Source: Lachnospiraceae bacterium (GTDB taxonomy: Bacteria > Bacillota > Clostridia > Lachnospirales > Lachnospiraceae). From it: a DNA stretch of 43,133 nt. Made by a program: the position numbers and the translations under genes. The stretch is taken from assembly GCA_020860645.1 (NCBI GenBank), contig JAJBTX010000120.1, positions 14,767 through 57,899 on the forward strand. Direction: 5' to 3'. This document shows, one piece after another, positions 2,867-40,742 of this stretch (position 1 is its first letter; each line of letters opens with the position of its first letter). Under the pieces are notes generated by a model. That model was given only the letters and a program-made list of their open reading frames with translations. It was not told the DNA's origin and searched no databases.

Positions 2867-2890
2867 GCTGTTTCTTCCCTTTCGTATCTT

Positions 2891-5854: not shown

Positions 5855-5921
5855 ATCGTTCTCCCTTCTTCTATCCATCCAATGTCCTCGCATCCGGAGC
5901 GGGAAACGCGCCCTCTTTTGT

Positions 5922-8016: not shown

Positions 8017-8029
8017 CGTCTTTCCTCCC

Positions 8030-10126: not shown

Positions 10127-10141
10127 ACCGCTTCCTCCTTC

Positions 10142-13180: not shown

Positions 13181-13592
13181 AAGCTTCTTCTTCCTCGGCT
13201 GTCGCCTCTAAATAAAAAGGGAATACCAGGTTGTCTCTGGTGTTTTTGTCTATGATCTCGTAATCGATGTCCACCATCAGGCAGCCGTCCCGCACCTGGG
13301 AATCCGTCGTGATCTTCACATTCCGCACGCGCGGCTCCTGAAGGGAAATCTGTTCCCTGAGAGAGCGGATCATCAGATTCACATTCGTGACGTTGATATC
13401 CATGAAGGTGTAGGACATCAGACTGCTGCCAAAGTCCGGCCTGATAAAACGTTCCGACCTCTGCGTCATGAGGATCAGGTAAATGGACTCCTTCACGCTC
13501 TCCTCCTCGGACGATACGACAAACCTGCCCGTGGCTTTGTTGACCTGCGGCGGGAACTTCATGCCCGTCCCCAGAAAACTGTCCTTTGGCAC
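13149..13592 (-). CDS. gp25-like baseplate wedge protein (GPW/gp25 family)
   Basis: This 147-aa protein fits the gp25 family, including the 'ESIYLILMTQRSERFIRPDFG' type core with the ExxR-like motif (residues about 34-56; ILMTQRSERFIRPDFGSS) that joins the baseplate to the first sheath ring. Its length is normal, apart from an acidic tail (EEEEAYEPEQYEELE). The start is a GTG at 13592 with GGAGGG upstream. It follows the gp5-like spike gene and overlaps the large J gene by 32 bp, the usual CIS order spike-gp25-J. Confidence 0.9.
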   Translation of the reverse strand: MPKDSFLGTGMKFPPQVNKATGRFVVSSEEESVKESIYLILMTQRSERFIRPDFGSSLMSYTFMDINVTNVNLMIRSLREQISLQEPRVRNVKITTDSQVRDGCLMVDIDYEIIDKNTRDNLVFPFYLEATAEEEEAYEPEQYEELE

Positions 13593-13615
13593 CGGTACTC
13601 ACCCTCCTTCCTCTC

Positions 13616-14428: not shown

Positions 14429-14439
14429 CGAAGTCTCCT

Positions 14440-15576: not shown

Positions 15577-15590
15577 CCGCTCTGCCCTTC

Positions 15591-16430: not shown

Positions 16431-16461
16431 ACGCCTTCTCCTTTTTGGGTGCCCCTGATTC

Positions 16462-17271
16462 TTACAGGCTCAGGTTCAGTAAACTGTTGTTCGTGATCTT
16501 GCTGGCCAGGCTCGTCTTCCCCAGGACGGACGTCGACTCAAATTTATCTTTGTATGCGTCCTCCCAGTAGTCCATATCGCCCGGCGAGGCCTTCTCCTGA
16601 CGGATGGTGATATCTATCGTCCCGCGGATCGGGTTGCCGCTTTTGTTGAACATGGTGTAGGTGTTGTCCACCGAGGTCAGCTCACCCCGGAAGCACATCG
16701 AACCCCACACAAACATCACCTGTCTGGTCGCGTCGCTCAGCAGAAGCGACATGATCGCGTCCATCTGCGGCTGCACGGTATAGGGATTGCTTCTCAGCGC
16801 ATTGATAAGCCGGCTTCCCGTCGAGATGACGTTACCCGGGGTCAGCGAAAAGTTTCCCTGCACGAAAGCATTCCCTATATTGGTATCGTCAAAGAGCAGC
16901 TGGCAGTGCAGCATCGAGAGCGCCTGCTCGAAGTTCTGGGTCGTACGGGCCAGCCTCACGCTGTCGCGCGCGCCATAGTCGACCATCTCGCCGGCGCCCT
17001 GCGTGCTGATCGAGAGGGACGAGGGATTGTACTGCACCTCCAGCGCCCAGTAATTGGTTCCCGCCGTCAGGTTGTTCGCCGTGATGGACGAGAAGGTCTG
17101 GCTCCCCAGGCTCAGCGCGCTGGACGTATTTTTCAGAATCTTTTCCCGCAGAGTGTCCGCGTTCTCCTGCGCCGTCTCGACGGATGTGACGGACTCGTCG
17201 CATACAAAGAGGATCGCTTTTGTAATGTTGCCGGTCAGGCTGCTGACCGCGTTTGACAATAGACTGTACAT
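16462..17271 (-). CDS. CIS_tube-like baseplate protein 1 (Afp7/Pvc7 N-terminal domain type)
   Basis: This 269-aa protein carries ALEVQYNPSSLSISTQG (about residues 76-92), the CIS_tube signature, and CQLLFDDTN further on. The last residues, NNSLLNLSL, match the end of its paralogue (SLLNINL), so the two probably arose by tandem duplication. It lacks a LysM domain, unlike typical Afp7/Pvc7. Two related subunits could form a mixed ring or occupy two layers at the tube-baseplate junction; this is inference. The ribosome binding site AAGGAGG precedes the ATG, with a 16-bp gap to the upstream gene. Confidence 0.8.
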   Translation of the reverse strand: MYSLLSNAVSSLTGNITKAILFVCDESVTSVETAQENADTLREKILKNTSSALSLGSQTFSSITANNLTAGTNYWALEVQYNPSSLSISTQGAGEMVDYGARDSVRLARTTQNFEQALSMLHCQLLFDDTNIGNAFVQGNFSLTPGNVISTGSRLINALRSNPYTVQPQMDAIMSLLLSDATRQVMFVWGSMCFRGELTSVDNTYTMFNKSGNPIRGTIDITIRQEKASPGDMDYWEDAYKDKFESTSVLGKTSLASKITNNSLLNLSL

Positions 17272-17287
17272 CCAGCACCTCCTTCAA

Positions 17288-20116: not shown

Positions 20117-20163
20117 AGCTCTCCTCCTTTCCTGTTATAGGCTCGCTGATGTCCTGTTTATAC

Positions 20164-21015
20164 TCACTGCGGGGACGGATACGAAACCGCGCTCTTCGTC
20201 GGCGGCCACTTTCGGCCTGTCGGTTCCGTCGCGGAGGTCAGATACGCGTCCGTTCCCACCGCGCTCTGCGTCGGCGGCCATTTACGACCCGCCGGCTTCG
20301 CCGTGGAGCTCAGATACGAGGCGATGTCCGCCGCGCTCTTCGTCGGCGGCCACTTCCTTCCGAGCTTCTTCATCTCCGCCTTGTCAAGCTCGCCCTTCGG
20401 ATTCGGAGCGGCGGACTGTACGCCGTTTCCCTTCTTATCCGTCTCTTTAAATTTCCAAAGTACCGCGTTTTTCTCAAAGTCCGCCTTGCTGGCCTCTCCC
20501 GCGACGTGTTTGGCGGACTGCTTCCCCTTGCCAGCCTTCGTCGTCTTGTCAAATTCCCAGGTGCCGGCCGAACCGCCCACACTCGGGAAATCCAGACAGA
20601 ACAGCTCCCGATAGGAGATCGTAGTCGTCTCCGTCAACAGGCCGCTGCGCTCCGAGTCCAACTCCCCGTAGTCCTTGGAAATCACGGTGCAGCCGGTGAA
20701 CAGATAATAGCGCACCGTCTGCGAGTCCCCATACATCCGGTTCACCATCAGGACAACCGGCAGCACCAGCTCCGTGCCGAGCGTCAGCGGGTCCAGCAGC
20801 TGCACGCCCACGTAGCGCTCCACCTGGAAGGTGAAGGGCTGCGAGATCGGCTTGCGCAACATATGTACATAGTCGTTCAGGCCGCCCTCCTGCACGTATT
20901 CAAACTCGTTCGCCCGGGTAAAGGCCTTGACTGATTTGCAGGGCAGGTCGTAAAGAGCCTCCACACGGAGCACAAAATTAAAATTTACCAGCGGATTTTT
21001 CGCATAGTCTGCCAT
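20164..21015 (-). CDS. Second tube-like protein (gp19 family) with Trp-containing repeat tail
   Basis: Residues 1-145 of this 283-aa protein look like a tail tube protein: opening NPLVNFNFVLRVEAL, a FTRANEFEYVQEGG segment and ISQPFTFQVERYVG, as in Afp5-type tube paralogues. The rest is an unusual tail of about 135 residues: two copies of a W-x-F-x-x-T...QSA unit (from W153 and W187), then three copies of GRKWPPT(K/Q)SA at 219, 243 and 267 with an exact 24-residue period. The tail is rich in Lys, Gly and Pro and probably flexible. The tube part may form the first ring above the baseplate; the tail's job is unknown. The ribosome binding site is weak (AAAGGCGGGA). Confidence 0.75.
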   Translation of the reverse strand: MADYAKNPLVNFNFVLRVEALYDLPCKSVKAFTRANEFEYVQEGGLNDYVHMLRKPISQPFTFQVERYVGVQLLDPLTLGTELVLPVVLMVNRMYGDSQTVRYYLFTGCTVISKDYGELDSERSGLLTETTTISYRELFCLDFPSVGGSAGTWEFDKTTKAGKGKQSAKHVAGEASKADFEKNAVLWKFKETDKKGNGVQSAAPNPKGELDKAEMKKLGRKWPPTKSAADIASYLSSTAKPAGRKWPPTQSAVGTDAYLTSATEPTGRKWPPTKSAVSYPSPQ

Positions 21016-21030
21016 ATCGGTCCCGCCTTT

Positions 21031-21228
21031 CTAACGCGTCGGTTTCATGTCGAGAATACTCTTCTCCTTGTTCTTTTTGGAGGGATTCAGGCTCTCGTTG
21101 ATGCGGGAGATCTCGCCGCACCATTTTCGCCTGGTCACATGGTCGAGTCCCATCACATCCGAGCTGCCCCAGTGGAAGTAATAGGAAATGAAAGCCATCT
21201 CCTTATACAGCTCCTCTTCCGGGTACAG
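21031..21228 (-). CDS. DUF6760-like small tail protein, probable CTG start
   Basis: From CTG at 21228 this gives 65 residues beginning LYPEEELYKEMAFISYYFHW. In this family (DUF6760, named from memory) an aromatic-rich FHW is followed by a DHVTRRKW-like basic segment, both seen here. The next in-frame conventional start is a GTG at 21288, which would overlap the upstream gene by 58 bp and add residues unlike the family. CTG has GGAGGG exactly six bases upstream and begins two bases after the upstream TAA, so coupled or CTG initiation is more likely. In contractile tails this gene usually sits just after a tail-assembly-type gene; its function is not established. Confidence 0.7.
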   Translation of the reverse strand: MYPEEELYKEMAFISYYFHWGSSDVMGLDHVTRRKWCGEISRINESLNPSKKNKEKSILDMKPTR

Positions 21229-21230
21229 CC

Positions 21231-21593
21231 TTATCCCTCCACGGTAAAATTTAAAGGCACCCGGAAAATCTTTCCGCAGTCCGGACACACGGCCTCCATC
21301 GTGGGCGGCTCGATGTCGTTGATCCGCTGGTACATGTCCTGCAGGAAAGCCAGATCCGCGGTGAACAGCTTCTCGATCACGTTCGCGCTCACCATCTCCA
21401 GCCCCTCCAGCTCCGTCACGACCCTTCCGAGGATCACGATCGTCAGATAGGACGGATTGCTGAGTACGCGCGGGTCCCGCGTCGCCCCGATCTCGTCGGC
21501 GGCGGTCGCCAGGCGCATCTTCCCCTTTCGGTGCAGCTGCCCGCTGCCGTCCAGGTAGCCCTTCGGCAGTGTAAAATCAAATACGGTTTCCAT
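21231..21593 (-). CDS. Tail assembly-type CIS protein with C-terminal CPDCG
   Basis: The 120-residue product starts METVFDFTLPKGYLDG and includes ATAADEIGATRDPRV and SYLTIVILGRVVTEL, the pattern of small proteins encoded just after tube genes in CIS and contractile phages and often annotated as tail assembly proteins. It ends with a CPDCGKIFRVPL half zinc ribbon. The ATG at 21593 has AAGGAGAG upstream; an upstream frame extension reaches 21731 but runs through a structured noncoding stretch, so I do not use it. The gene ends in TAA immediately before the DUF6760-like gene. It may act as an assembly chaperone. Confidence 0.78.
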   Translation of the reverse strand: METVFDFTLPKGYLDGSGQLHRKGKMRLATAADEIGATRDPRVLSNPSYLTIVILGRVVTELEGLEMVSANVIEKLFTADLAFLQDMYQRINDIEPPTMEAVCPDCGKIFRVPLNFTVEG

Positions 21594-21731
21594 AACTTCT
21601 CTCCTTTGTCGCCTTGCTGATCGGTATCCGGATACGGACCAGAAGCGGGGCGTCCCCGCGCCTCGTCCCTGTACGGATGTCTGCCGCCCCCTGCGGGGCG
21701 GGTGGCTGCCCCGCAGCCACCCGTTTATCAC
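21594..21731 (-). promoter_or_regulatory. Structured GC-rich leader between tube and tail-assembly genes with two competing hairpins
   Basis: This 138-bp gap is the largest within the particle genes and holds several inverted repeats. Arm pair A is CGGGTGGCTG/CAGCCACCCG (10 bp, loop 5; 21699-21723). Arm pair B is CTGCGGGGC/GCCCCGCAG (9 bp, loop 8; 21691-21716). They share bases, so only one can form. A third hairpin, GCGGGG/CCCCGC, lies at 21645-21659, and a 12-bp palindrome GTATCCGGATAC at 21624-21635. None has a U-run on the minus strand, so it is not a standard terminator. It may stabilise the sheath-tube end of the mRNA or modulate read-through. Confidence 0.6.
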
Positions 21732-22226
21732 TTAGTTCGGAATCACCAGTTCCTCGTACGCGATCTCGACGCTCTCAATCGCCACGTCACTGGTCTTCGC
21801 GTCCAGGTCGGGCGCGTTGTACTTCGTCACCCATGCGTTTGTCAGGATCCAGACCCTCGTTCCGCTCACTGCCGTCGCGATGGTCTGCGGCGCGCCGCCG
21901 GTGATGTCGATCATCTCGATCTGCACATTGTTCCGCGGAATCTCGCCGCGGACCTCGCTGACGCACTCCTGCACCCAGGTCTTGAACGCGCTGTCCAGGG
22001 TGTAACCGAATTTCAGCGTCACATTTCCGTGTTTCACGAGGCCCGGGATCTTGACCGGCGCCAGGCTGTTCGCGTTACCCTGGCGGAACTCAATCACGTC
22101 CACGCTCGCTTCGATACCGGTCACCTCACTGAAGGCCGCCGTTCCCGACACGCCGTCCACTGTGACCAGAAAATTCATCTTTGTCAAAGGATAGGAAAGT
22201 CCTTTACTGTTTTCATATGTCGCCAT
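21732..22226 (-). CDS. Tail tube protein (gp19/Hcp-like)
   Basis: The 164-residue product has the usual length of gp19-type tube subunits and the family pattern: NFLVTVDGVSGTAAFSEVTG near the start, EFRQGNANSLAPVKIPGLVK with HGNVTLKFGY, then W-V and beta strands to EIAYEELVIPN. Subunits form hexameric rings that stack into the inner tube propelled by the sheath. The ATG has AAAGGAGA upstream and follows the sheath gene by 39 bp. This is likely the major tube protein, because it is short, has no extension, and directly follows the sheath gene. Confidence 0.93.
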   Translation of the reverse strand: MATYENSKGLSYPLTKMNFLVTVDGVSGTAAFSEVTGIEASVDVIEFRQGNANSLAPVKIPGLVKHGNVTLKFGYTLDSAFKTWVQECVSEVRGEIPRNNVQIEMIDITGGAPQTIATAVSGTRVWILTNAWVTKYNAPDLDAKTSDVAIESVEIAYEELVIPN

Positions 22227-22265
22227 CTTTTATATCTCCTTTCTGTTCACTGACGCGTCTGCCGA

Positions 22266-23963
22266 TTATTCCTCTCCTCCGCCGGACTCAGCCGTATGCT
22301 GCGTCACGCGGAAGATCACGAACTCGGCCGGACGGGACGGCGCGATACCGATGTTGCAGATCAGTCTTCCGTTCATGATGTCGTCCCTGCTCATCGTGGA
22401 CGAGCCGATCTCTACGAAATAGCCCTCCGCCGGCGTGGAGCCTGCCAGCATGCCCTGTCTCCACATACTGTCGAGGAAGGAGGAAATCGTCATGTTGACT
22501 CTCTGCCACAGCGTCGCGTCGTTTGGCTCAAAGACGACCCAGTTGGTGTTCGCCTTGATGCTCTCCTCCACATAGATGAACAGACGCCGCACATTGATAT
22601 ACTTGAAGGCCGAATTGCTGCTGGCCGTCCTCGCGCCCCACACGCGGATGCCCTGTCCGGGAATCGCGCGGATCAGGTTGATGCCCTCCGGATTCAGGAT
22701 GTCCTGCTCTGCCTTGGTGTAATTCACCTTCAGGCCGGTGCAGAAGACGATCTCGTTCGCCGGGGCCTTGTGCACGCCGCGGTTGATGTCGGTACGGGAG
22801 TAGACGCCCATGACCGCGCCCGAGGGCGGGATGAAATCGCTGCGGTTCGAGGAGCGGTCGAAGACCTGGATCCACGGATGGTACATCGCGGCGTAGGTCG
22901 AATCGATGATGCCGCGGTATTCGATCAGATCCTTCGTCTTGTACGCGTCCTTCGGCATATCAAAGACCGCCACGCGGCTCTTCAGATTCTCGCAGTGCGC
23001 TACAAGCGCGACCGTCACCTCCGGATCCGTCACGCCGGGGATCGCCAGCATGCTGACCGTGCTGTTCTCGACGAAGGACTGGATGCCCGTGCGCTTGCCG
23101 GGACCGCCGTCCACGCCAATGAAGGTCGCCGCCGTCACCGAGTCAATGCTGCCATCGGAGCCGCCCTCCAGACTCAGCATGCCGCTGGTATTGCCCTCGC
23201 CGAAGATCGCCTCAACCGGATTGCCGATCTTCTCCGGCTGGCCGATGGAGACCTTCACCAGCTCGCTTAATGCCAGGCGGGAGCCGATGTAGTTCGACGC
23301 TTTCACGTTGAAGCTCAGCTCGCCGTAGCTCTCGACCTCATCGTTGTAGCGGACATTCACGTCCACGCTCACGAGATAGAGAACGGTCTGCGGGATAATG
23401 CTGGTGTCCACCACCTCGCCGGTGAAGGGCTGCTCAAAGGTCACAGTATTGTCATAGATGGCGGCGATGCGGTTGTACTCCCCGTTCGCGTCGACCAGGT
23501 CGCCCTCGCGGAAGCCGTCCACGGACTTCGCGATATAGCCGGTGCCGGACTGGGCGATGAGCTGCATCTTCTTCTTCTCGACCGTATTGAAGGAAATCTG
23601 GATGCGGTTGCCCCATTTTCCTTCATTCGCCGCCTCCACGGAGAGGATGCCCATCTCCTTCGACGCGGACTTCGCACCCTCCGGAATCACGCGGGACACA
23701 TAGCATCTGGTTCCGCCGTTGACGAAAAACTGCTCGACGCTGTTCGCCAGATAGCGATAATCGCCGTGGGTGAATTCACTGAGGAACCCGCCGAACTGCG
23801 CGGTGAAGCTCTTGAAGTTTGTGACCAGAGAGGGCGCGCCGATCGTCGGTCCCTTCTCCGCAAAGCCGATAAAACCGGCCGTACTGGTCCCTACACCTTC
23901 GATGCTCCGCGGAGAATTGTCATATTCTTCCACATAGACTCCTGGTGTAAAATATTCTGCCAT
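22266..23963 (-). CDS. Contractile tail sheath protein
   Basis: The 565-residue protein starts with MAEYFTPGVYVEEYDNSPR, the classical sheath N-terminus that forms the linker arm to neighbouring subunits, and ends with the sheath C-terminal domain (IPGQGIRVWGARTASSN, then KANTNWVVFEPNDATLW, and EFVIFRVTQ). Length is typical for CIS and phage sheaths. The sheath contracts to drive the tube into the target. A single sheath gene is present, unlike Afp/PVC systems with two or three. A strong ribosome binding site (AAAGGAGA) precedes the ATG, and the tube gene follows. Confidence 0.96.
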   Translation of the reverse strand: MAEYFTPGVYVEEYDNSPRSIEGVGTSTAGFIGFAEKGPTIGAPSLVTNFKSFTAQFGGFLSEFTHGDYRYLANSVEQFFVNGGTRCYVSRVIPEGAKSASKEMGILSVEAANEGKWGNRIQISFNTVEKKKMQLIAQSGTGYIAKSVDGFREGDLVDANGEYNRIAAIYDNTVTFEQPFTGEVVDTSIIPQTVLYLVSVDVNVRYNDEVESYGELSFNVKASNYIGSRLALSELVKVSIGQPEKIGNPVEAIFGEGNTSGMLSLEGGSDGSIDSVTAATFIGVDGGPGKRTGIQSFVENSTVSMLAIPGVTDPEVTVALVAHCENLKSRVAVFDMPKDAYKTKDLIEYRGIIDSTYAAMYHPWIQVFDRSSNRSDFIPPSGAVMGVYSRTDINRGVHKAPANEIVFCTGLKVNYTKAEQDILNPEGINLIRAIPGQGIRVWGARTASSNSAFKYINVRRLFIYVEESIKANTNWVVFEPNDATLWQRVNMTISSFLDSMWRQGMLAGSTPAEGYFVEIGSSTMSRDDIMNGRLICNIGIAPSRPAEFVIFRVTQHTAESGGGEE

Positions 23964-23991
23964 AATAGTTGTTCTCCTTTCGTATTGTTAA

Positions 23992-24378
23992 TCATGTGAC
24001 AGTGACCATCGTCTGCCCCGGCGACACGATGCTGATGGAACCGCCGTAGGCGCACATCAGCTTGCAGTCGTTGGTCAGACAGGGCTTTCCGCCGATCAGC
24101 ACTGTCGGTTTTGTCGGTATCCAGGTCCCCGCGGCTACCAGCGTGCAGGGCATCGGCGTCAGCACGCCGAAAGCCGCCGCCGTGGCCGAGGCCACCGCAG
24201 GATTTGCCAGGGAAGAGCACATGCCGAAGGGAGTGATATTCGCAATCTGGCAGTCCTGGATCGTCGCCGCCGGCATTCCTCCGGCCATACACATCGTCTG
24301 GGAGGTCACATTGATCGTCCCCGGCGCAACGCCGAAGGTACACATGGCGCTCCCGCCTGTCACTACGAGTAATCCCAT
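23992..24378 (-). CDS. PAAR-like spike tip protein (DUF4280)
   Basis: The 128-residue product has the DUF4280 pattern: VVTGGSAMCTFGVAPG at the start, NITPFGMCSSLANPAV in the middle, and LIGGKPCLTNDCKLMCAYGG near the end, with several conserved cysteines that could bind a metal ion at the tip. PAAR-like proteins sharpen the gp5/VgrG spike and can carry effectors. It has no extension, so it is not itself an effector fusion. The ATG at 24378 lies 16 bp inside the preceding gene, with an AGGAGG site, which suggests coupled translation. The sheath gene follows. Confidence 0.92.
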   Translation of the reverse strand: MGLLVVTGGSAMCTFGVAPGTINVTSQTMCMAGGMPAATIQDCQIANITPFGMCSSLANPAVASATAAAFGVLTPMPCTLVAAGTWIPTKPTVLIGGKPCLTNDCKLMCAYGGSISIVSPGQTMVTVT

Positions 24379-25130
24379 ACACTGTCCTCCTGTTCCAGTT
24401 TCATTTCCCCGGCGCGATGGAAATCCACCGTCCGGAACGCTGCTTTGCCCTCCGCCACATAGCGGACCAGATAGACGAGGTTTTCCGCGTCGTCCCGGAC
24501 ACGCAGCAGGTAACTGCCATCCGGATCCACGCTCCCGAACACGATCCGGGAGACGGGCGCGTTCACCGTGAAAGGTTCCTCCAGAGGTCGGCTGATCTTC
24601 ACCGAGCCGTCCAGCAGCTCCTTCACCACCTCAAAGGGTTCGTAAGTCTGCTGCTGGGGATGAACCAGACCGTAGAAAATGTCGTCCATGCCCATCCTGT
24701 GGGTTTTGAAGAGCTTCATGATCCGCTTGCGCTCGTCAAAGCCGCTGATACAGCACCCGGCGCTGCCGGGGCTTACCGCCTGGATCTCCGTGATACCCGG
24801 AAGTTTCCCTGAGAAGCTGATAACCGGCTCTCCCCCCGGCACGTTCTCCGACGGTATCAGGAACGCTTCCTTTATCGGCATCCGGCTGTCCAGCTCCCCG
24901 TAACGGATCGCCACCCTGCACGGCTCATAGCCGTACACGCTGACATCGAGATCGCCGTCCTCCCTTCCGCAGTTCAGGAATACGTAATTTCCGCTTCCCC
25001 TGGGAATGGGCCGCACCGGCCGATCGTCTCTCCAGAACCGGACGTTCCGCTCCTCGACCTCGAGACCTGTGGTCGTATCGATCAGTCTGACCAGCAGATC
25101 CAGGCTGTAACGAATCTCAGATGCATCCAC
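24363..25130 (-). CDS. Unknown 255-aa CIS-locus protein
   Basis: I do not recognise this protein. It starts at a GTG (25130) with AAGGATAACAG before it, right after the Pvc16-like gene. Its sequence is beta-rich with many charged residues. The N-terminus (YSLDLLVRLIDTTTGLEV) reads like a beta-sandwich or Ig-like domain, and a middle segment (MDDIFYGLVHPQQQTYEPFE) is not typical of any family I know. It has no signal peptide or membrane helix. It overlaps the PAAR-like gene by 16 bp, a tight coupling that suggests a role at the particle's cap or tip, or as a chaperone for the PAAR protein; this is inference from position. Confidence 0.55.
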   Translation of the reverse strand: MDASEIRYSLDLLVRLIDTTTGLEVEERNVRFWRDDRPVRPIPRGSGNYVFLNCGREDGDLDVSVYGYEPCRVAIRYGELDSRMPIKEAFLIPSENVPGGEPVISFSGKLPGITEIQAVSPGSAGCCISGFDERKRIMKLFKTHRMGMDDIFYGLVHPQQQTYEPFEVVKELLDGSVKISRPLEEPFTVNAPVSRIVFGSVDPDGSYLLRVRDDAENLVYLVRYVAEGKAAFRTVDFHRAGEMKLEQEDSVWDYS

Positions 25131-25133: not shown

Positions 25134-25730
25134 TTATCCTTCTCCTCCTTCCTCCCCGGTAATATGCAGTCCAAATGTCGCGTCCGTGACACGGGGGGTG
25201 TCAATGACCACTTCGCTGGATAAAAATACGGGCGCCGCCTTGTAGAACAGGCTGATCTGATAGGGCTTGTTGATCGCCTGCCACACCCTCACCTTCTCCT
25301 CCAGGCTTATCTTCGCCTGAGACAGCACAATCGGAGGTTCCTGGGTATCCAGCCAGGACTGCAGCTCATTCGGGCGGACGGAGCTGTTGTCATTGACAAT
25401 CTGCGCCACCCTTCCGATGATTTTTTGTATATCCGGCGCCTTGAGTCCCATCTGGGAGGAGCCGTTGATAAAGACCATATAGTAGAGACCATAGGGCCTT
25501 GGCGGTTTTTTTAACTGGACCCGACCCTTCTGAATGTAGGGCTGCTGGGTCACGTCGCTCTCCTCGCGGATATCGTAGAGATACAGCCCGAGGATATAGT
25601 CCACGTCCTGGTCCGCGGGGGAGGAAACCTCAATATTATTCGGAGACGGTATCGGCTCCGGACACATCTTGCTGCGGAGCGTCCGCACAATATACGCGCT
25701 CACATCGGAAATAATCGGATAATCTGCCAT
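25134..25730 (-). CDS. Pvc16/Afp16-like cap protein (DUF4255)
   Basis: The 198-residue product starts MADYPIISDVSAYIVRTLRS and contains PADQDVDYILGLYLYDIRE and RPYGLYYMVFINGSS, which is the Pvc16 N-terminal domain. Afp16-type proteins cap the distal tube end and help end its growth. A long upstream frame extension exists but overlaps the preceding gene in another frame; the ATG at 25730 has a perfect AAGGAGG 5 bp upstream and is the right start. It begins 13 bp after the TolC-like gene and is the first recognised particle gene of the operon. Confidence 0.88.
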   Translation of the reverse strand: MADYPIISDVSAYIVRTLRSKMCPEPIPSPNNIEVSSPADQDVDYILGLYLYDIREESDVTQQPYIQKGRVQLKKPPRPYGLYYMVFINGSSQMGLKAPDIQKIIGRVAQIVNDNSSVRPNELQSWLDTQEPPIVLSQAKISLEEKVRVWQAINKPYQISLFYKAAPVFLSSEVVIDTPRVTDATFGLHITGEEGGEG

Positions 25731-25743: not shown

Positions 25744-27600
25744 TTAAGTCCCTGTCGTACTCGTCTGCTCCGCATAGGGCGCTGTCGTGACGATGCCGAT
25801 CGGCTCTGTCGGGTCAAAGGCACATGTTCCAAGAAGTATGCCGTCCGCGTCGTAGAAGCGGACCTCCACATCGGACATTCTCCAGGCGAGCAGACGCCAG
25901 TGGCGGATCTCCTGTGAGGTCGCCGTCCGCTCCCCGACCTGCAGCTCGCCGCACCAGAGCTCATAGTAGGCGATCTCCTCGGAATAAGCTCCGGGGACCG
26001 ACACGCCGAAGGAAAACTCCTCCTCGGCCGAGTGCGATTTGATGTAGTAGACGACTTCCGCCTCCTCCGCATCAGCGGAGCCTGTCGTCGCCGATGCCGT
26101 GTCAGACACCCCTTCCGAATCGGTATCCGCCAGGCCTCCTGAGCTGACATAGCTGCTCTCTGTTTCCTTGCCGACAAGCCGGGCCGGATCGCTCTCGATC
26201 TCCTCCACCAGCTCCTGAAGATAACCTCCGGTGGCACTGTCAAGGGCGTAATACGCTTTGAAATACTCGCTCCTGGCGTCGAGCAGCTCCATCTCAAGAT
26301 CTTCGTATTCCCCGGTCAACGCATCGTACTCATCCTTTGACAGCTCGCCGATGCGGTAGCGCACCCGGTAAGTCTTCTGCTTCTTTTCGAGGGCTTCGAT
26401 CTCTTCTTCCAGATCCGCGATCTGCTCCTTCCGGTCCAGCAGATTGTCATAGCTTTCCTCCACACTCTCGCTCAGCGATTCCTCAAGGTCGGCGAGGTCG
26501 ATCTGCAGATTCTGGTATTTCAGCACGTCGTCGTACAGTGAGTACGCGCCGTCGTCGTCCTCGATCGACTGTCCAAGCCCCGCGGCTCTCGCCTCCGCAT
26601 AGGCGTCATACTCCGTCTGGAATTCCTCCGTATCGATCGCCCATCCGGCGACCGCCTGCAGCATGTACTGCAGAATATTGTCCGGCACCTGATAATTCTC
26701 GGAGCGCGCCGTATATTCCTTCCAGAAGGCCCACAGCATATTCTGTGCGCTCGCGTAGGACGCGAGATACGAACTGCTGTTTTCGAGGGTTCCCACAGTC
26801 AGCTCCTCGAGCCTGCCCTCCCAGAGTTCACTTTCCACTTCCAGCTCCGCAAAGCTGACGTTTTCGGAGAGCTCCACTCCCATGGCTTCGGAGAGCGCCG
26901 TCTTCGCTTCCTCGAGTTCCTCCTGCCTTTCATCAAGGCTCTCCTCGCGCGATTCCACTGCCTCTTCCTGCGCGTCCACGTCGCCCTGCGTGGCCTGTCC
27001 GGTTCTGAGCAGCGCCCTGATCTTCGTCAGGGAGGTTTTCTCCTCCGCGAGCCACTCCTCCTCCAGCTCGATCTTCTGCTGCAACGTGACGATATCCGCG
27101 TACAGCCCGGCGATCTCCTCCTGCACCGACAGCCGCGCTTTCTCCAGCGCCGCCTCGGCAGTCCTGACGTCCATCTGCGCCAGCAGCGGCGCGATCAGGA
27201 TACTGTAGAGCTCCGAGAGACTCTGTCCCTCCGAAGGCACCGCCTCCATAAAAGGCGACCATAGATATGGCTCCTCCTCGGTCTCTTCTTCCGTCTCGTC
27301 CGCCGTGCCATCCTCCACTGTCGTCTCTTCCGCGGAAGTTTCCTCCGCGTCCGTCTCTTCCTCAGAATCCTCACCGGAAAGGGATCGGTTGGCGATCAGG
27401 ACGGCCTGCGCCAGATCGACCTTCTTCATGGAAAGTTCATTGTTCAGCTCCGTGTAGTCATCGCTGTTCGCAAAGGCCTGCGTCACCGCACTCGCAAACT
27501 TCAGGGTGCTGCTCCCTGCTGCCAGCGTCGGAAAACCTGTCCCCTCGAGGAGCAGTACCGCCGCGAGAAGGGCTGCGATGCCATTTCTTTTCTTTTTCAT
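25744..27600 (-). CDS. Secreted TolC-like coiled-coil protein
   Basis: The 618-residue protein has a signal peptide (KKKRNG, a hydrophobic stretch LLAAVLLLEG, then TLAA around residue 28). An acidic low-complexity segment (77-110) follows. Two similar coiled-coil units come next, residues about 154-241 (ALLRTGQATQGDVDAQEEAV...ALSEAMG) and 363-458 (RYRIGELSKDEYDALTGEYE...ALDSATG). Both read as A-x-Y/L-x-x-G-x-x-[ST]...L-x-x-A-x-x-x-L-x-x-x-x-G, the alternating helix pattern of outer membrane efflux (TolC) proteins, which are also internally duplicated. A Gram-positive host has no outer membrane, so the role is unclear; a wall-spanning conduit or clamp is possible. A beta-rich C-terminal domain ends the protein. 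AAGGAG precedes the ATG. Confidence 0.65.
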   Translation of the reverse strand: MKKKRNGIAALLAAVLLLEGTGFPTLAAGSSTLKFASAVTQAFANSDDYTELNNELSMKKVDLAQAVLIANRSLSGEDSEEETDAEETSAEETTVEDGTADETEEETEEEPYLWSPFMEAVPSEGQSLSELYSILIAPLLAQMDVRTAEAALEKARLSVQEEIAGLYADIVTLQQKIELEEEWLAEEKTSLTKIRALLRTGQATQGDVDAQEEAVESREESLDERQEELEEAKTALSEAMGVELSENVSFAELEVESELWEGRLEELTVGTLENSSSYLASYASAQNMLWAFWKEYTARSENYQVPDNILQYMLQAVAGWAIDTEEFQTEYDAYAEARAAGLGQSIEDDDGAYSLYDDVLKYQNLQIDLADLEESLSESVEESYDNLLDRKEQIADLEEEIEALEKKQKTYRVRYRIGELSKDEYDALTGEYEDLEMELLDARSEYFKAYYALDSATGGYLQELVEEIESDPARLVGKETESSYVSSGGLADTDSEGVSDTASATTGSADAEEAEVVYYIKSHSAEEEFSFGVSVPGAYSEEIAYYELWCGELQVGERTATSQEIRHWRLLAWRMSDVEVRFYDADGILLGTCAFDPTEPIGIVTTAPYAEQTSTTGT

Positions 27601-27704
27601 CTTTTCGCCTCTCCTTCGGAACTATCAGAGAATCAATCCTTGCATCTGACTTGTCTGAATCCTCCTATACTTCATCACATACCAGGCTCATTCATGGCAG
27701 CTCC

Positions 27705-28904
27705 TTACTCCTCATACTGAATGATGTAGAAGGAAAACGTCCCGTCTGTCCCGGAGGATATGAAGGTGTAGCTCAGCCCGTCCCGGGTCCCCGTAAACAT
27801 CCGCGCGCTGCCTCCGTATTCCTCCACGGTATAGTAATCGTCATATTCTTGCGTCAGCACAAGCTGTGCATCTTCCGGATCGACGTAAGACAAAGCCACC
27901 GTCTCTGCAAGGCTCAGCGTCTCCGTCTGCGTCATCAGCTCCGTCCCAAAGTAGCTTTCCAGCTCCTCCTTCGTGCTGAGGGCCGAGCTGCCCACGGGAA
28001 ATTCGTCGCTCAGCACAATCAGCTGCCCGATCGTGATCTCCTCGTCCAGCGTCGCGCTCTCCCCGGTGTCGGCATAGATCACACCAATATCGTCCAGCAC
28101 CACCGCATAGCTGTCGTCCTGTTCATAGACCGTGCGGACGCCGGAATAGATCTCTGCCGCCTCAGAAGCCTTCATCCCCAGAAGCTCACTGTAGACGATC
28201 ACATCCCTACTGAAGCTCCCCTCGTAGACCAGCGTTCCGCTCACGTCATAGAGCTTGCCGGAGCCGTCCTTCATGCCGAGCGAAAAATCTCCCTCGTACT
28301 CGAGAGTTCCGTTCTCGCGGTACAGCTTCCCTGTCCCGCTGAACTCATTGGACTCAAATTCCCCTGTGTACATCATGGTCCCGTCGTCGTAGTAGCGCGT
28401 GCCGGTTCCCTGATATTCGTTATTTTCAAAATTTCCCTGATAGACGACAGCCCCGTCGGAGTTATACAGAGTGCCGTAGCCGTTGACCGCTCCGGAGGAG
28501 ACCTCCCCCTCGTAGGCAACATATCCGTCCTTCGCCGTGATCTGCACCGTGTCGCTCGTAAAGCGCAGCAGCAGAGAATTGTAGGCGTAGGACTTGACCG
28601 TATCCGTACTCGAGCTCGGCAGGACGCTACGCACGCAGAACAGGTAATAGATGCTGAGCACCCCCGCGACGACCACCAGCGCGATCGCCAGCCGACGACT
28701 CACGAGCCAGCCGAAAACCTCGTAATAGTCCTTCTTGTGCCTGGGCTTGATATTCAGGATATTCGAGAAGAAGTCCCGGATAGCGGAGATCACCTTTGTG
28801 CGGATGAAGCTCCAGCTGGTCCAGTTCTTGAACTTCGTGACCAGCGGCGTAATCTTTGACTTGATCGTCGTGATCAGCGTACTGAACAGACTACCCATAT
28901 TCAC
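27705..28904 (-). CDS. Membrane-anchored MORN-repeat protein
   Basis: The 399-residue product has an N-terminal region of about 70 residues that should be cytoplasmic (many Lys and Arg), one membrane helix (about 72-91), and then four or five MORN-type repeats (131-232) of the form Y-x-G-x-F...G-x-G-x-L-Y...G-T, each 23-24 residues. The rest is a domain I do not recognise. MORN repeats form long beta-sheets that bind proteins or lipids. The start could be the GTG at 28904 or the ATG six bases on; AGGAG lies before both. Its neighbours are the cyclase-like membrane protein and the TolC-like protein, so it could be a structural part of an envelope complex. Confidence 0.75.
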   Translation of the reverse strand: MNMGSLFSTLITTIKSKITPLVTKFKNWTSWSFIRTKVISAIRDFFSNILNIKPRHKKDYYEVFGWLVSRRLAIALVVVAGVLSIYYLFCVRSVLPSSSTDTVKSYAYNSLLLRFTSDTVQITAKDGYVAYEGEVSSGAVNGYGTLYNSDGAVVYQGNFENNEYQGTGTRYYDDGTMMYTGEFESNEFSGTGKLYRENGTLEYEGDFSLGMKDGSGKLYDVSGTLVYEGSFSRDVIVYSELLGMKASEAAEIYSGVRTVYEQDDSYAVVLDDIGVIYADTGESATLDEEITIGQLIVLSDEFPVGSSALSTKEELESYFGTELMTQTETLSLAETVALSYVDPEDAQLVLTQEYDDYYTVEEYGGSARMFTGTRDGLSYTFISSGTDGTFSFYIIQYEE

Positions 28905-28944
28905 GCCTCTCCTTTCTCACCCCATTCCGGCTGTTCCCGCGGCG

Positions 28945-31197
28945 TCAGCCGTCGCAGCGCAGCCTGCAGATATCCCCATCGCCGTTTGACAGATTCAGAT
29001 ACTTCTCACAGGTAAACAGATACCATCTGGCCATGCGATCCATCGGATTGACCTTGAGCACATCCGAAAAGGCGTTCCTCGCCAGATAAAAATCATTCTG
29101 ATAAAACAGCTCCAGTGCCTTTTCGAAGCGATCCAGCGTCTCGATCTTCGGCTTCCGCTCCGGCTGAGGATACGCCTCCAGCATTTCATAGAGGTCGAGC
29201 CGCTGCCCGGACTGTCCGAGGCAGATATAGCCGATAAAACGAACCGCGCCCTGCGGTTTCTCCCGCTCACGCACCCCGGCGGTGACGACCAGCCTCAGAT
29301 CCATGCTGCGGAACCAGTCCGCAAAGCGCTCGAGCTCCGCCTTATCCTCCGACAGAAGGAAGGGGAAGCTCTGCCGCTCGTCCCCGGCCACCCCGTAGAG
29401 GAACTCCGAATCATGCAGCAGTATCCCTGCTTTCAGGCTCACAAGATCAGGCTGCGCATAAACTTCCCGCAGGAAGGAAACACCAAAATCCACGCCCCGC
29501 CCCTCCGACTCCAGGAAAAGAAGCTTCAGACTTGTCAGGTCCGCATTTCCGGACACAAAATATCCTTCGCTCTCTTCCATGTGGCGCTCCAGTAGCGTGA
29601 CGAACTGATTTATCTGCTGCGCGGAGCCCTCCGACGCGCCCTGCGGCTCCGTCGTCGTGACAAAGGCCACCATCCCGTGCAGCCGGACCGTATCTCCGCC
29701 CGCGACCTCCGTGATCGAGTCGCGTCCGAAAATCTTCTCAATATTCTTCGGCGCAAAACGGTAGCAGGACTCAAAAATCCGGTAGCGCGTGTAGTTGATG
29801 CGCCCGATCTTCTTCTGCAGCTCCATAAGACTGTTCCACATCACAGCCACATCCCGGCTGCGGGCGGCCCTGCCCATGGGCACCTCCTGTCCCGCCGAGA
29901 CCTGCAGCATGGCGGCCGAGAACCTTCTGAGCTCCGACCCGCGGATCAGCAGCAATGCCATACACACCGCGCTCGCGGCCAGGAAAAGGATGACTGCAAA
30001 GACCAGATAACCGCGGCTTTCCGCCTCCGCGAACAGACTTACCGCAGTATCGCCGCGAACCGCCGCCAGCGTGTATACTGTCTCCCCGTCCGGCGTGAAA
30101 TCCGCCTCCAGAAGCTCCGCGTCCTGCCCGTAAACAGTGGAAAGCAGCGCTCCGTTCTTTCCGCTGGCGCTCAGCAGGATACATCCATCCTCCGGCCTCA
30201 GAATGCAGAGATCCGTAAAGACGTCCCCTGTGCCCTCATCGGAAATAAATCCGGACAGGAGGCTGAAAACCTCCTCGTAGGTATCGCTCTGATAGAAGCC
30301 CTCCGTCTCAAAGTCATCCATCGGCTGCAGCGCCTTCATCTCCACGAGCAGCGCGCTCAGATAATAGCGGCTGTAGCGCTCCGTCTCCGACTCCGTCGTG
30401 TTCCGGCTGCTCAGCGTCGCCAGCGCCACGCCGGTCACCGTGATGATGAGCAGCAGCAGCTCGACGAGTATCACGGCATAGACCGTATAGCTGCGGTTTT
30501 TCAGGAACCGCACGACGAGGAACAGCAAAAGCCAGCCAGCGAACAGAAGCACAAGATGGCAGATCGTGTTGAACTGCCGGATATTCGCCTCCTGCCCCAT
30601 GTCCATGAGCAGCTGCTCACAGTCGGCCTCGTCGGCCGCGGCCTGCTCATAATACTCTGCCCCCGTCCCGTCGTCCTTCCAGGTGAGGAGCAGTCCTTCC
30701 TCGTAAGCAGCCCAGTTAATCTGACGCCCTTCTCCGGCTTCCGCGCTGCTCACAAGCGCAAGAGAGAGCGGCTCAGGCGTCTCCTCCGCCGTCAGGTTCT
30801 CCTCGGACAAATTTTCACTCTCCACAAAATAGACGCCGGCGCGCTCTCCCCCGTCCAGGATCACGGCGAGATAAAAGCCGTCTCTCGCCACGCTGAGGGC
30901 ACTGACACTCCCTCCGCTCTCCAGCTCCAGGACCGGGGTGACAGCGGAGGCCTCGCCGGTCTCGCTCAGGGAGACAATCCGCCGCCCCTCCCCGTCCTCA
31001 GATGAGGAAGGCGTCAGCACCGCGTACAGCCCATCCGAATAACACAGAGCTTCAAATTCACTCCCCTTTTCCAGAGAATCGCTCAGATACACCGAGCGCG
31101 GCGGCTCCCCGGGCCAGTCTCCTCCCGTCACGACAGCCATGACGGCTACGGCAATCATCCAGAGAAAGCCGATCAGAACAGGTATTCTCCTCCTCAT
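28945..31197 (-). CDS. Four-helix membrane protein with degenerate class III cyclase domain and TPR-like tail
   Basis: The 750-residue product has membrane helices at about 5-25, 211-231, 238-262 and 396-418, leaving two extracellular regions (26-210 and 263-395). The cytosolic part starts with a HAMP-like linker, then a domain whose opening, CYRFAPKNIEKIFGRDSITE (478-497), matches the lead-in of class III adenylate/guanylate cyclases. The first metal-binding motif, usually FSDIRGFT, is AFVTTTEP (511-518), and the second Asp site is also not present, so it should be catalytically inactive. A TPR-like helical pair (687-735) ends the protein. It probably senses an outside signal and scaffolds cytoplasmic partners. 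GGGAGGAAG precedes the ATG. Confidence 0.75.
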   Translation of the reverse strand: MRRRIPVLIGFLWMIAVAVMAVVTGGDWPGEPPRSVYLSDSLEKGSEFEALCYSDGLYAVLTPSSSEDGEGRRIVSLSETGEASAVTPVLELESGGSVSALSVARDGFYLAVILDGGERAGVYFVESENLSEENLTAEETPEPLSLALVSSAEAGEGRQINWAAYEEGLLLTWKDDGTGAEYYEQAAADEADCEQLLMDMGQEANIRQFNTICHLVLLFAGWLLLFLVVRFLKNRSYTVYAVILVELLLLIITVTGVALATLSSRNTTESETERYSRYYLSALLVEMKALQPMDDFETEGFYQSDTYEEVFSLLSGFISDEGTGDVFTDLCILRPEDGCILLSASGKNGALLSTVYGQDAELLEADFTPDGETVYTLAAVRGDTAVSLFAEAESRGYLVFAVILFLAASAVCMALLLIRGSELRRFSAAMLQVSAGQEVPMGRAARSRDVAVMWNSLMELQKKIGRINYTRYRIFESCYRFAPKNIEKIFGRDSITEVAGGDTVRLHGMVAFVTTTEPQGASEGSAQQINQFVTLLERHMEESEGYFVSGNADLTSLKLLFLESEGRGVDFGVSFLREVYAQPDLVSLKAGILLHDSEFLYGVAGDERQSFPFLLSEDKAELERFADWFRSMDLRLVVTAGVREREKPQGAVRFIGYICLGQSGQRLDLYEMLEAYPQPERKPKIETLDRFEKALELFYQNDFYLARNAFSDVLKVNPMDRMARWYLFTCEKYLNLSNGDGDICRLRCDG

Positions 31198-31213
31198 AAG
31201 TAACTTCCTCCCT

Positions 31214-32065
31214 CTATCCGGTCAGCGATTCCGTGCCGATCGTTTTAAATCCATTAAATAAAAGTCGCAGCCACGGTACATCCCCGAAAATCAGCTGGCA
31301 CAGCAGGGACGCCAGCACAATCACCACCAGTATCGTACAGACGACCAGGAGGATGCGGAAGATCGTATCCTGCTGGCGCGTAAGCCAGGCCATCAGCCGC
31401 TTCTGGATCCCGCGCCTTTTTTCCGGCGCCGCCGCGATCTGGATATCCTTGTACAGCTCGGTGAAAGAGTCGTAGCTCTTTCTGCCGATCTTTTTCTCCA
31501 GGAGGCGGTAGCTGTATGCCTTCTGCGCCGCCTTCGCACTCAGAAGTTCCCTTAAGATCTGCGCGCATTCCACCGCGCAGTCGCGCTCTGTCCTGTTAAG
31601 ATCCAGCCCGCTTAAGTCGATCTGCCAGCCCAGATAGACCGTATGGTCCTTGGCCAGGTTCAGCTGCCCCTGCCGCAGGGCCAGATAGAGCAGAGGATAT
31701 GGCAGACCGGCTGTCATACAGGCGATGATCACGCTACTGCAGATCGTCTCGCACTCATTCAGGGAGTAGAATCCGCCTGTATAGAAATCTTTCAGCGGCC
31801 GCTCCTGCTTGTACGCGAACACCATGCAGAACATACCCTGGTCGGAAAAGCTGTCCACGCAGGCCCTCTCCCCGGCATTGCCGGCGCTGCGGAATGCCTC
31901 CAGACAGCTCCTCACCACAGCGTGATCCTTGATGACCAGCACAGTATACAGAGCTCCCGCGGAGGAATAAAGGTCGCGGCAGACCAGGATGTCATTAACA
32001 CTATTCGATTTTACAGTCCGAACGCAGGCGAGTCTCATCCGCTGCGACTGATAAATCTTATCCAA
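31214..32065 (-). CDS. Pseudokinase-like protein with C-terminal membrane helix
   Basis: The 283-residue product is soluble up to about residue 230, then has one clear membrane helix (236-258) and a short C-terminus outside. The soluble part reads like a kinase fold without catalytic residues: VLVIKDH (43-49) resembles the beta3 strand with Lys, and the stretch around NLAKDHTVYLGWQIDLSG (136-153) sits where HRD and DFG would be, but neither motif is present. This arrangement recalls EssB/YukC, the membrane pseudokinase of type VIIb secretion, although sequence identity is not obvious. The start is a TTG at 32065, three bases past the upstream stop, with GGAGG farther upstream; the ATG ten codons in is an alternative. 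Confidence 0.55.
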   Translation of the reverse strand: MDKIYQSQRMRLACVRTVKSNSVNDILVCRDLYSSAGALYTVLVIKDHAVVRSCLEAFRSAGNAGERACVDSFSDQGMFCMVFAYKQERPLKDFYTGGFYSLNECETICSSVIIACMTAGLPYPLLYLALRQGQLNLAKDHTVYLGWQIDLSGLDLNRTERDCAVECAQILRELLSAKAAQKAYSYRLLEKKIGRKSYDSFTELYKDIQIAAAPEKRRGIQKRLMAWLTRQQDTIFRILLVVCTILVVIVLASLLCQLIFGDVPWLRLLFNGFKTIGTESLTG

Positions 32066-32068: not shown

Positions 32069-33880
32069 TTATTTTTCCTCCGTCTCAGCTCCCGCTTTCT
32101 TCACAATCGCATAGGCATAGGTACAGATCACCGGCATGTCCACACAGTAGACGCGAATCTCGTAGACGCCCTCCTTCGACGGCGAGGTGTAGACGCCGTC
32201 CGAGGTAATCTCGCCGCTCCCCGGCTCCGTCAGCTCATAGGCAATGCTGCAGGGCTCCATATTGTTGTAACGCACATGGAAATAGTAGTTCTCCCGCGTG
32301 CCCATCACCACGGTCGGCGTGTCCATGGAAATGCTCCTGTCGCTGTAATCCTCCGCCTGATCCAGATCGTTTCCGGCCGGGAAACGGGTCGCGACCCAGC
32401 GATAAGTAAGTACAAGATAATTCACATTTTCCAGAAGCTTCGCCGCCACGATAAAGCTTCCCTTGTCGTTCATGACCTTCACAGCCGTCTCCACGTCCAC
32501 CGCGGTCAGCTGCTCATCGCGGAACAGCTTCGGGTTCCCGTAGATCGTATTGCGGGAAGTAACGCCGAGCGCCGGATCCTCCGCAATGTATTCGTAGCCG
32601 ATCTCCACATGCACATTTCCCTTTCCGAGCCCGTGCATGATCTCGCCTGAGTAGCGGACGTCCCCTCTTCTGGCGTTTTCCCCGAGCGGGATCTCCAGGA
32701 CGCCGGATGCGGTTTCCACCGCCCTGCCCTGCCAGGCAGCCGCCCCGGCCTCAGCCGCCGCAGGATGCTTCGGTTCGCCTCCGCGGAAAATGTCCGGATC
32801 CTTGGAAAAATACTCCATGTACTGGCTGCGCAGCCTGCTCTGGGATGGCGCCATGATATAATTTTTGACGCCCTTCTCCAGGACTTCTTCTATAATATAG
32901 GCATTCTCCGTGCGCACCAGCTTCAGATCCGCAAGGCAGACATAATCCTTCGTGCCGCCCATGCTCTTCATCTCGAGGCTGATACGCCCGAGCTCCTGAC
33001 TGACCAGATCGCCCGGCTTCATGTCCGTGAGCACGATATTCAGGGCGCAGCCGGAAGGAGCTTCCTTCGCCACGCCACCCACCTGGGCGTGAGCGGAACC
33101 GCTCTCCACCAGGATGCTGGTCTCAAGCACCGGCGTCTCCTGCGTGTGCAGCCAGTAATCCTTTTTCAGCGTCTCGCCCTCCGCGAGCGAAGCCTCCCGG
33201 ATCTCCACCTGCAGTTCATGCGTCCCATCCGCCGTGAGGAATACAGGCGTCTGCAGGAGTGCCCGGTAAGAGAATTTCCGGTTCTGCGCGGAGAGCTTCT
33301 GCACCGTCAGCTCCAGCCGGACATTCTTCCCGCGGCAGACCGTGGCCGGCATGGACAGCTTCACGGAGAAATCCTCATCCTCATAGAGGGTAAGGCTCGT
33401 GAAAAACTCACTCTCCATCTCGTACTCCGCCGTCTCATCCTCACGATCCATCAGGAAGAGCTGATAGGACTCACTGATGCGGTTGTATTCGTACTCCTCG
33501 CTGCCGTCCCCGCGGCTCCCCTGGTTGACCGTGTAGACCGTGTGGATCGGCTCCTCCCGATAGCGCAGGCAGAGGCATGCCTCGTCCGTGCGCAGGTTCT
33601 CAAAGCCCTCGATCGCTGAGAGCTTCTTCACGACGGAGGACTCCACGACGATCTCGCGCCCCAGCCCGTCGATCGCGACGCCGCTCTCCACCAGGATCGA
33701 CAGGTCGTCGAGGCTGAACACGCCGCAGCCGCAGACCACGCCCGCACCGTACATCAGATTGTTGACGAAGCGGCGCTTGTTGTTGAAATAAGTCTGCTCG
33801 GCCTGGAAGTCCGCGGAAGTGAGCATCTTCCCCGCGTAGTAGCGGTTCCTCTCAAAAGGATACAGTTTCGTATTGTTCAT
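32069..33880 (-). CDS. CIS-associated protein with NRYYAGKMLTSADF motif and Ig-like C-terminus
   Basis: The 603-residue product starts with NRYYAGKMLTSADFQAEQTY followed by FNNKRRFVNNLMYGAG (residues 12-47) and VVCGCGVFSL, a combined motif I recall at the N-terminus of many CIS-locus proteins of unknown function. The middle is beta-rich with several domains. The C-terminus (about 505-595, with EPGSGEITSDGVYTSPSKEG) looks like an Ig-like domain often found in surface proteins and fibres. There is no signal peptide. It could be a fibre- or surface-type component of the particle. AGGAGGGGAG precedes the ATG, and the histidine kinase gene ends 31 bp upstream. Confidence 0.65.
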   Translation of the reverse strand: MNNTKLYPFERNRYYAGKMLTSADFQAEQTYFNNKRRFVNNLMYGAGVVCGCGVFSLDDLSILVESGVAIDGLGREIVVESSVVKKLSAIEGFENLRTDEACLCLRYREEPIHTVYTVNQGSRGDGSEEYEYNRISESYQLFLMDREDETAEYEMESEFFTSLTLYEDEDFSVKLSMPATVCRGKNVRLELTVQKLSAQNRKFSYRALLQTPVFLTADGTHELQVEIREASLAEGETLKKDYWLHTQETPVLETSILVESGSAHAQVGGVAKEAPSGCALNIVLTDMKPGDLVSQELGRISLEMKSMGGTKDYVCLADLKLVRTENAYIIEEVLEKGVKNYIMAPSQSRLRSQYMEYFSKDPDIFRGGEPKHPAAAEAGAAAWQGRAVETASGVLEIPLGENARRGDVRYSGEIMHGLGKGNVHVEIGYEYIAEDPALGVTSRNTIYGNPKLFRDEQLTAVDVETAVKVMNDKGSFIVAAKLLENVNYLVLTYRWVATRFPAGNDLDQAEDYSDRSISMDTPTVVMGTRENYYFHVRYNNMEPCSIAYELTEPGSGEITSDGVYTSPSKEGVYEIRVYCVDMPVICTYAYAIVKKAGAETEEK

Positions 33881-35285: not shown

Positions 35286-35288
35286 GCT

Positions 35289-39260: not shown

Positions 39261-39300
39261 TCCACTCCTCCCTTCCTGCTATTCTTCTACGACCGCTGCT

Positions 39301-40245: not shown

Positions 40246-40262
40246 CGCTTTCCCTCCTGATG

Positions 40263-40739: not shown

Positions 40740-40742
40740 AAA

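Follow-up and report, generated by a model that had tools for sequence, protein, structure and literature searches.

A membrane pseudokinase, a pseudo-cyclase, a MORN protein and a TolC-like protein in contractile injection system operons of Clostridia: a possible docking and trigger complex

Introduction

How the particles of contractile injection systems (CIS) meet the membrane and wall of monoderm bacteria is poorly known, and the worked bacterial example in the available parts of the literature is CisA of Streptomyces. In the Streptomyces coelicolor CIS, CisA is bitopic with a cytosolic N terminus, occurs in monoderm CIS clusters and is needed for firing; its N-terminal part is largely unstructured and its outside domain folded (PMC12237407, available sections). 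In the thylakoid CIS of Anabaena, the N-terminal domain of Cis13 binds the baseplate and the protein's own C-terminal helix anchors the particle in the membrane (PMC8894136, available sections). For an archaeal CIS working in the mode of a type VI secretion system (T6SS), the putative anchor is Hbor_38620, with six helices and ~150 cytoplasmic residues (PMC11566945, available sections). CisA and Hbor_38620 show that different CIS lineages have taken up different membrane proteins. Here we describe four genes, A to D, lying in a CIS operon on a 43,133-nucleotide stretch of a Lachnospiraceae genome (contig JAJBTX010000120.1; the whole stretch is hereafter the window), which together with the adjacent gene CIS13 may encode a docking and trigger complex for the particle.

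The N-terminal CIS13 part is shared with Anabaena Cis13; here, however, a hydrophobic helix past residue 150 is missing from CIS13 in 36 of 38 loci, and A stands next to it instead. Like CisA, A is predicted to be bitopic with its N terminus in the cytosol. It differs from CisA in its folded, kinase-like N-terminal part and a predicted outside tail of 23-37 residues, a distinction drawn from description, not sequence. Similarly, B and Hbor_38620, compared by description only, are both CIS-linked multi-helix membrane proteins with a cytoplasmic domain, but B has fewer helices, four, and a bigger HAMP-cyclase-TPR part. The role proposed for the block, that of a platform at the membrane on which an intracellular contractile particle would stand, is the one that the TssJLM complex has in the T6SS. 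The block differs in being built of pseudokinase, pseudo-cyclase, MORN and TolC-like parts, and no Omp85 match was found in the whole genome (98% complete). A preliminary description of the four genes, made from the sequence of the window, had likened them to TssJLM in role and not in ancestry; in keeping with this, no TssJ, TssL or TssM family was found among the 30 window proteins at E<=0.1 in Pfam and NCBIfam scans.

In the open-access literature searched, the term "contractile injection system" never occurs with "pseudokinase" or "MORN", although a description elsewhere (preprints, subscription papers) is possible, and it occurs with "Lachnospiraceae" only via a reference-list phrase. In the parts available, TolC together with extracellular CIS leads only to Pseudomonas tailocins, and CIS combined with Clostridia, gene cluster and transmembrane only to archaea. 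The available part of one survey reports no Pfam domain characteristic of one taxonomic group such as Gram-positives (PMC8213781).

A recurrent block in CIS loci

A search of genome contigs with A yielded 39 loci, 38 of them taken as Clostridia by title and one (L062) titled "bacterium" only (loci are numbered with L, genomes with G). Among these, CIS13 was found in 38, B in 37, C in 35, D in 28, the cap gene in 31, the particle gene g255 in 30 and a further gene, X, in 22, all on the strand of A. The missing CIS13, B, C and cap genes, together with five of the 11 missing D genes, fall at the ends of the available sequence. The closest named loci to the window are the Lachnospiraceae metagenome-assembled genomes (MAGs) L050-L052, and three loci (Lachnoclostridium sp. 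An196, Anaeromassilibacillus sp. An200 and Pseudoflavonifractor phocaeensis An507) are titled as isolates and not as MAGs.

Among 391 genomes sampled from the class, six gave a match to A and 15 a match to the cap gene (Fisher p 2.4e-7, on raw counts with G071 included); the six are a lower bound, as very diverged members are missed and the A of G322 was recognised only on reading its locus. Parts of the module occur in eight of the 15 cap-bearing genomes (G000, G052, G146, G260, G281, G322, G377 and G394). Across the phylum, the C profile matched 44 of 398 sampled genomes, and in nine the match extends into the part before the MORN repeats; all nine are CIS loci, with A in seven and B in seven. 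Besides these nine, the loci of five MORN-only matches were read, and no CIS structural gene was found in them within 20 kb. Furthermore, B was matched in 13 of 61 related genomes, in 12 of them in CIS loci (the exception being G041), and G006 has a second copy outside. Over the 31 loci with all five genes, pairwise distances correlate at r 0.91-0.97 among A, B and C, at 0.86-0.97 among A, B, C and CIS13, and at 0.68-0.91 with the cap.

The four consecutive genes are real and form one block of the CIS operon; recurrent order and co-occurrence across loci led us to reject a chance cluster, and the co-occurrence across genomes that the preliminary description had put forward as its own test was found in the 39 A loci and in nine of the nine loci reached through C. 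What did not hold is the view of the four as a fixed unit. The usual core is CIS13, A, B and C, with D optional and X an addition in just over half of the 39 loci, and some relatives have a B without its membrane half, an A without its helix, or no A that could be found. Gene order also varies: in L095, L108, L109 and L110 it is CIS13-A-C-cap-g255-(PAAR)-B, and in L111, L112 and G394, C is on the strand opposite CIS13 or B. The two CIS loci among these in which CIS13 stands without a recognisable A have in common two uncharacterised open frames downstream of CIS13, one at L111:8137-9363 or L112:15376-16626 and beside it one of 809 residues; the pair is a possible alternative membrane set.

CIS13 and the pseudokinase A

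CIS13 matches only the N-terminal part of the family NF053767 (model positions 3-144 of 392; protein residues 8-153; E 2.3e-26), scoring 93 bits and not reaching the family cut-off of 370. A is the next matched gene after CIS13 in 38 of 38 loci that have both and in 9 of 9 further loci (47/47), with an open-frame gap of -72 to 289 nucleotides in the 38, and the adjacency is kept even where B stands elsewhere. CIS13-A is the steadiest pair of the block.

The structure model of A has a Hanks-type kinase fold. At the columns placed from the strands of this model, the catalytic Asp of HRD and the metal-binding Asp of DFG are both absent from all sequences (0/35). The positive side of the single helix is N-terminal in 38 of 39 homologues, which places the N terminus in the cytosol by charge, and the tail beyond it is 23-37 residues long in 38 of 39; Gly277 of its motif is found in 35 of 35 aligned rows and Ile276 in 30 of 35. 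A is thus predicted to be a membrane pseudokinase with a cytosolic kinase domain and a short outside tail, which bears out its first description as a pseudokinase-like protein with a C-terminal helix. By sequence, A alone matches no family in Pfam (E<=0.1), NCBIfam or PHROGs and no PDB sequence, and the family profile matches kinases weakly (best E 0.0054). EssB/YukC of type VII secretion likewise has a cytoplasmic pseudokinase and one membrane helix, but the outside domain of EssB is large and its gene neighbours are different ones, and A has no Pfam family at the above threshold. EssB-like folds were not among the best 50 structure matches listed for A, which excludes nothing.

Two A matches lie outside the module, one in G071 and a second match in G260 with intact HRD-like and DFG motifs. 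In L097 (G071 contig 395, 4.5 kb), positions 1189-3165 encode a pseudokinase-like protein of 659 residues in which an A-related part is accompanied by a hydrophobic helix and by what look, on inspection by eye, like two LysM repeats.

The preliminary description had also stated that nothing similar belongs to the classical Afp/PVC set. The lack of any A match in 72,556 plasmid records (E<=0.01) agrees with this, but the test is weak for a short protein: a sheath control at E<=1e-5 matches 171 records, 32 of them Serratia, and a cap control, similar in size to A, matches only nine, none of them Serratia.

Protein B, a receptor-like pseudo-cyclase

The helices of B lie at residues 5-23, 211-229, 241-259 and 400-418, and four hydrophobic helices are present in 27 of 37 homologues. 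The window's own B has no Pfam HAMP match at E<=0.1; the three diverged B proteins scanned (L079, L044 and L032) all have one, and that of L032 also matches Guanylate_cyc at E 0.013. Paralogues of the same layout, L031 (G041) and L034 (G006 contig 20), match Guanylate_cyc at 4.1e-16 and 5.9e-12, retain all four catalytic residues and have no CIS genes in the stretches read; such receptor cyclases are possibly the ancestral kind of B. In 45 CIS-linked B proteins the first metal Asp is kept in none, the second Asp in four, the Asn in three and the Arg in six. An earlier alignment gave 0, 1, 1 and 6 of 34, so that the count for the second Asp depends on the alignment. The TPR-like C-terminal end is weakly matched in the window and conserved among B homologues. 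In agreement with its first description, B has four helices, an apparently dead cyclase and a weak TPR, and it looks like a receptor cyclase whose metal ligands, and with them catalysis, have been lost. B has no match in 50,697 phage records. Relatives with intact catalytic residues occur in the same genus and order and could be used for comparison.

Proteins C and D

C is a one-helix MORN protein, as first described. One helix is found in 34 of 35 homologues, with the positive side N-terminal in 31, a tie in three and the opposite in one; this charge pattern suggests that the MORN repeats are probably outside the cell. The pair Asp59-Tyr60 before the helix is invariant (27/27).

D matches the Pfam family OEP (PF02321) in two stretches (E 6e-15), and its family profile matches TolC-type PDB entries (best E 9.2e-5). 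The model (predicted local distance difference test, pLDDT, 77.5; residues 81-118 under 50) has long hairpins and no strands at barrel positions. Foldseek returned 43 matches at E<=0.001, 37 of which are titled TolC-type or efflux channels; the remaining six are chains of 5azo, 5azp and 5azs, titled only as Pseudomonas membrane protein. D is therefore a TolC-fold protein, modelled without a barrel. As for the first description of D as a secreted coiled coil, its start resembles a signal peptide, but a mere coiled coil was rejected on the OEP, profile and Foldseek matches to TolC. To find the TolC fold where an outer membrane seems to be missing is unexpected, even if some Clostridia have proteins annotated as OEP-type. 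D is the sole OEP match in the genome. In the predicted topology, the block covers cytoplasm, membrane and outside, as had been suggested.

In the clade lacking D (L083-L088), CIS13 is preceded by two open frames for very large proteins of surface type, some of them truncated where the locus ends; a scan of one, from L083, found Fn3_assoc and CHB_HEX repeats. Gene X lies between D and the cap, is not in the window and is mostly ~780-1,450 residues long where uncut (for example L071:16996-19797 and, by eye, L090:4284-7691). The one X scanned, in L079, has a sub-threshold Cu-amine-oxidase-N match (E 0.00025).

A possible docking and trigger complex

The genes, their order and co-occurrence, the folds of A and D and the loss of catalytic residues are observed, and the topology is likely. 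On this basis we propose, at close to but below an even chance, that CIS13, A, B and C, with D where present, form an envelope complex which docks an intracellular particle at the cytoplasmic membrane of the monoderm cell and triggers it. CIS13 would be seated at the baseplate, the position of Cis13 in the thylakoid CIS. Because CIS13 has no late helix and a membrane pseudokinase follows it, A is proposed as a replacement anchor: its pseudokinase domain would bind CIS13 from the cytosol and its helix would tie CIS13 to the membrane, taking the place of Cis13's own helix. B, a receptor cyclase turned relay, would sense the outside and pass a change to A or CIS13 via its pseudo-cyclase and TPR-like end. 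The A tail, the MORN region of C and D with its TolC-like fold would make up the outer half. The loss of catalytic residues in A and B fits scaffolds or relays. Every protein-protein contact in this scheme, the docking and the triggering are what we infer.

Several observations weigh against this proposal. D is truly absent from the six loci L083-L088, which are not cut there. B has only 307-325 residues, without the receptor half, in L091, L109 and L110, and A is without helix and tail in two of the nine further loci (L092 and L113). A is not universal: within 20 kb no match to it at E<=10 was found in L111 or L112, although both carry CIS13 and C, and no A was found in 40 kb of G394, which has B, C, D and the cap. 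In seven of the 15 cap-bearing genomes, no A-D was found in the stretch read (~10 kb to either side of the cap, or up to the contig end where this came sooner, in G257 and G351), so CIS can lack them. Moreover, high distance correlations are also expected from plain co-inheritance.

Further points against docking are the basis of the alternative that survives best, although we consider it rather unlikely: A-D would be an envelope sensor which controls production or release of an ordinary extracellular CIS via partner-switching and two-component genes and does not hold the particle. The operon contains STAS (6572-6880) and HATPase_c_2 (5420-5893) genes, and a GHKL kinase and a LytTR regulator lie at 33912-36020. 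In L045 a SpoIIE gene (2786-4450) with sub-threshold HAMP lies downstream on the contig, and in L109, where B has 310 residues, a HAMP-SpoIIE phosphatase lies downstream in the same row with two genes between. B itself is akin to HAMP receptor cyclases. However, A and B are without the catalytic residues on which a classical signalling chain would draw, C and D look structural, the block sits among particle genes, and A follows CIS13 in all 47 loci in which both were found.

It is quite improbable that the block is a device for wall passage or surface display, in which D and C would form a path or stalk through the wall and A and B would only assemble it. D as the only OEP match of a genome without an Omp85 match would suit such a device, as would the addition of X in 22 of 39 loci (with the Cu-amine-oxidase-N match in one) and the very large proteins of surface type that precede CIS13 where D is absent (L083-L088). 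Yet neither D nor X is obligatory, D stands in the window between C and the cap, neither of them a transporter, and the channel of TolC is much too narrow to compare with the tube of a CIS.

Self-protection, with the envelope proteins shielding the producer from its own or sister particles, is very improbable: parts predicted outside and the linkage to CIS would fit, but a shield would have no use for a cytoplasmic pseudokinase, a pseudo-cyclase or the pairing of CIS13 with A, and nearly half of the cap-bearing genomes have no A-D in the stretch read. Least credible of all is that A-D are particle cargo, since their kept order, their parallel divergence, the four helices of B and the signal-peptide-like start of D speak against effectors, even though Streptomyces CIS effectors include single-transmembrane-domain proteins (PMC10066040, available sections).

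Locus layout and neighbouring genes

The source genome comprises 2.5 Mb in 133 contigs. By Pfam and NCBIfam matches, the CIS operon runs on the minus strand from ~33.9 kb to 6.9 kb of the window in the order CIS13, A, B, C, D, cap (Pvc16_N), g255, DUF4280/PAAR, sheath, tubes, CIS_tube, spike and baseplate (Table 1). It is of the Afp/PVC kind, with sheath, gp19-type tube, CIS_tube, spike, J-/I-type baseplate, Pvc16_N, DUF4280/PAAR and AAA ATPase genes clustered. The successive gaps in CIS13-A-B-C-D-cap are 3, 16, 40, 104 and 13 nucleotides. On the 3' side of the baseplate genes lie STAS, an ABC ATPase, the HATPase_c_2 gene and two AAA ATPases. No lysis family turned up among the 30 window proteins in the family scans, which counts in favour of docking. 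A scan for promoters and terminators gave 6 and 6, close to the means of 3.4 and 5.7 in shuffled sequence.

Upstream of the operon, MobL relaxase, Toprim, Sel1 and TraG genes (37443-42869) suggest a mobile element by this copy; they were rejected as block members, being unmatched in the other related-genome stretches compared. Elsewhere, L109:15033-18146, beside CIS genes, encodes an NHL repeat, a Cache-like part and a full MFS domain in one protein, and an open frame similar by eye is found at L091:1541-4585.

Table 1. Positions of the block and of adjacent features in the window
Feature	Position	Strand	Basis
CIS13 (N-terminal CIS13 domain), directly upstream of A	32069..33880	-	NCBIfam NF053767
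Gene A, predicted membrane pseudokinase, 283 aa, TTG start	31214..32065	-	
A residues 1-216, Hanks-kinase fold without catalytic Asp	31418..32065	-	
A residues 238-256, membrane helix	31298..31354	-	hydropathy 3.29
A residues 261-283, predicted outside tail, IGT motif	31217..31285	-	
Gene B, 750 aa, four helices, HAMP region, pseudo-cyclase, TPR-like end	28945..31197	-	
B residues ~479-688, class III cyclase-like domain without catalytic residues	29134..29763	-	alignment to L031, L034 paralogues
B residues 692-727, TPR-like	29017..29124	-	Pfam TPR_16 E 0.0028, under cut-off
Gene C, 399 aa, basic N terminus, one helix region 67-95, MORN repeats	27705..28904	-	Pfam MORN E 1.9e-13
Gene D, 618 aa, secreted-looking TolC-fold protein, C-terminal strands at 514-606	25744..27600	-	
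D first OEP (TolC-type) stretch	26878..27180	-	PF02321, profile 87-187
D second OEP stretch	26227..26520	-	PF02321, profile 90-187
Cap gene (Pvc16_N), next after D	25134..25730	-	PF14065 E 6.2e-29
Particle genes: g255, DUF4280/PAAR, sheath, tubes, CIS_tube, spike, baseplate	6910..25130	-	family matches
STAS, ABC ATPase, HATPase_c_2 genes (partner-switching type)	5420..6880	-	family matches

Conclusion

The block yields four or five named proteins, among which CIS13-A is the obvious pair to begin with, and an IGT-tail motif. Two enzyme families seem to have become non-catalytic components here, next to a single nanomachine. It is conceivable, though doubtful enough to be put forward only tentatively, that in many CIS of Bacillota a trans-envelope complex of dead enzymes, evolved independently, serves for docking and firing, with a pseudokinase as tie between CIS13 and the membrane, a pseudo-cyclase receptor passing on external signals and, in a monoderm wall, an outer part of MORN and barrel-less TolC proteins. 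If true, these CIS would be weapons anchored to the cell in the manner of a T6SS, and their platform would have no kinship with TssJLM.

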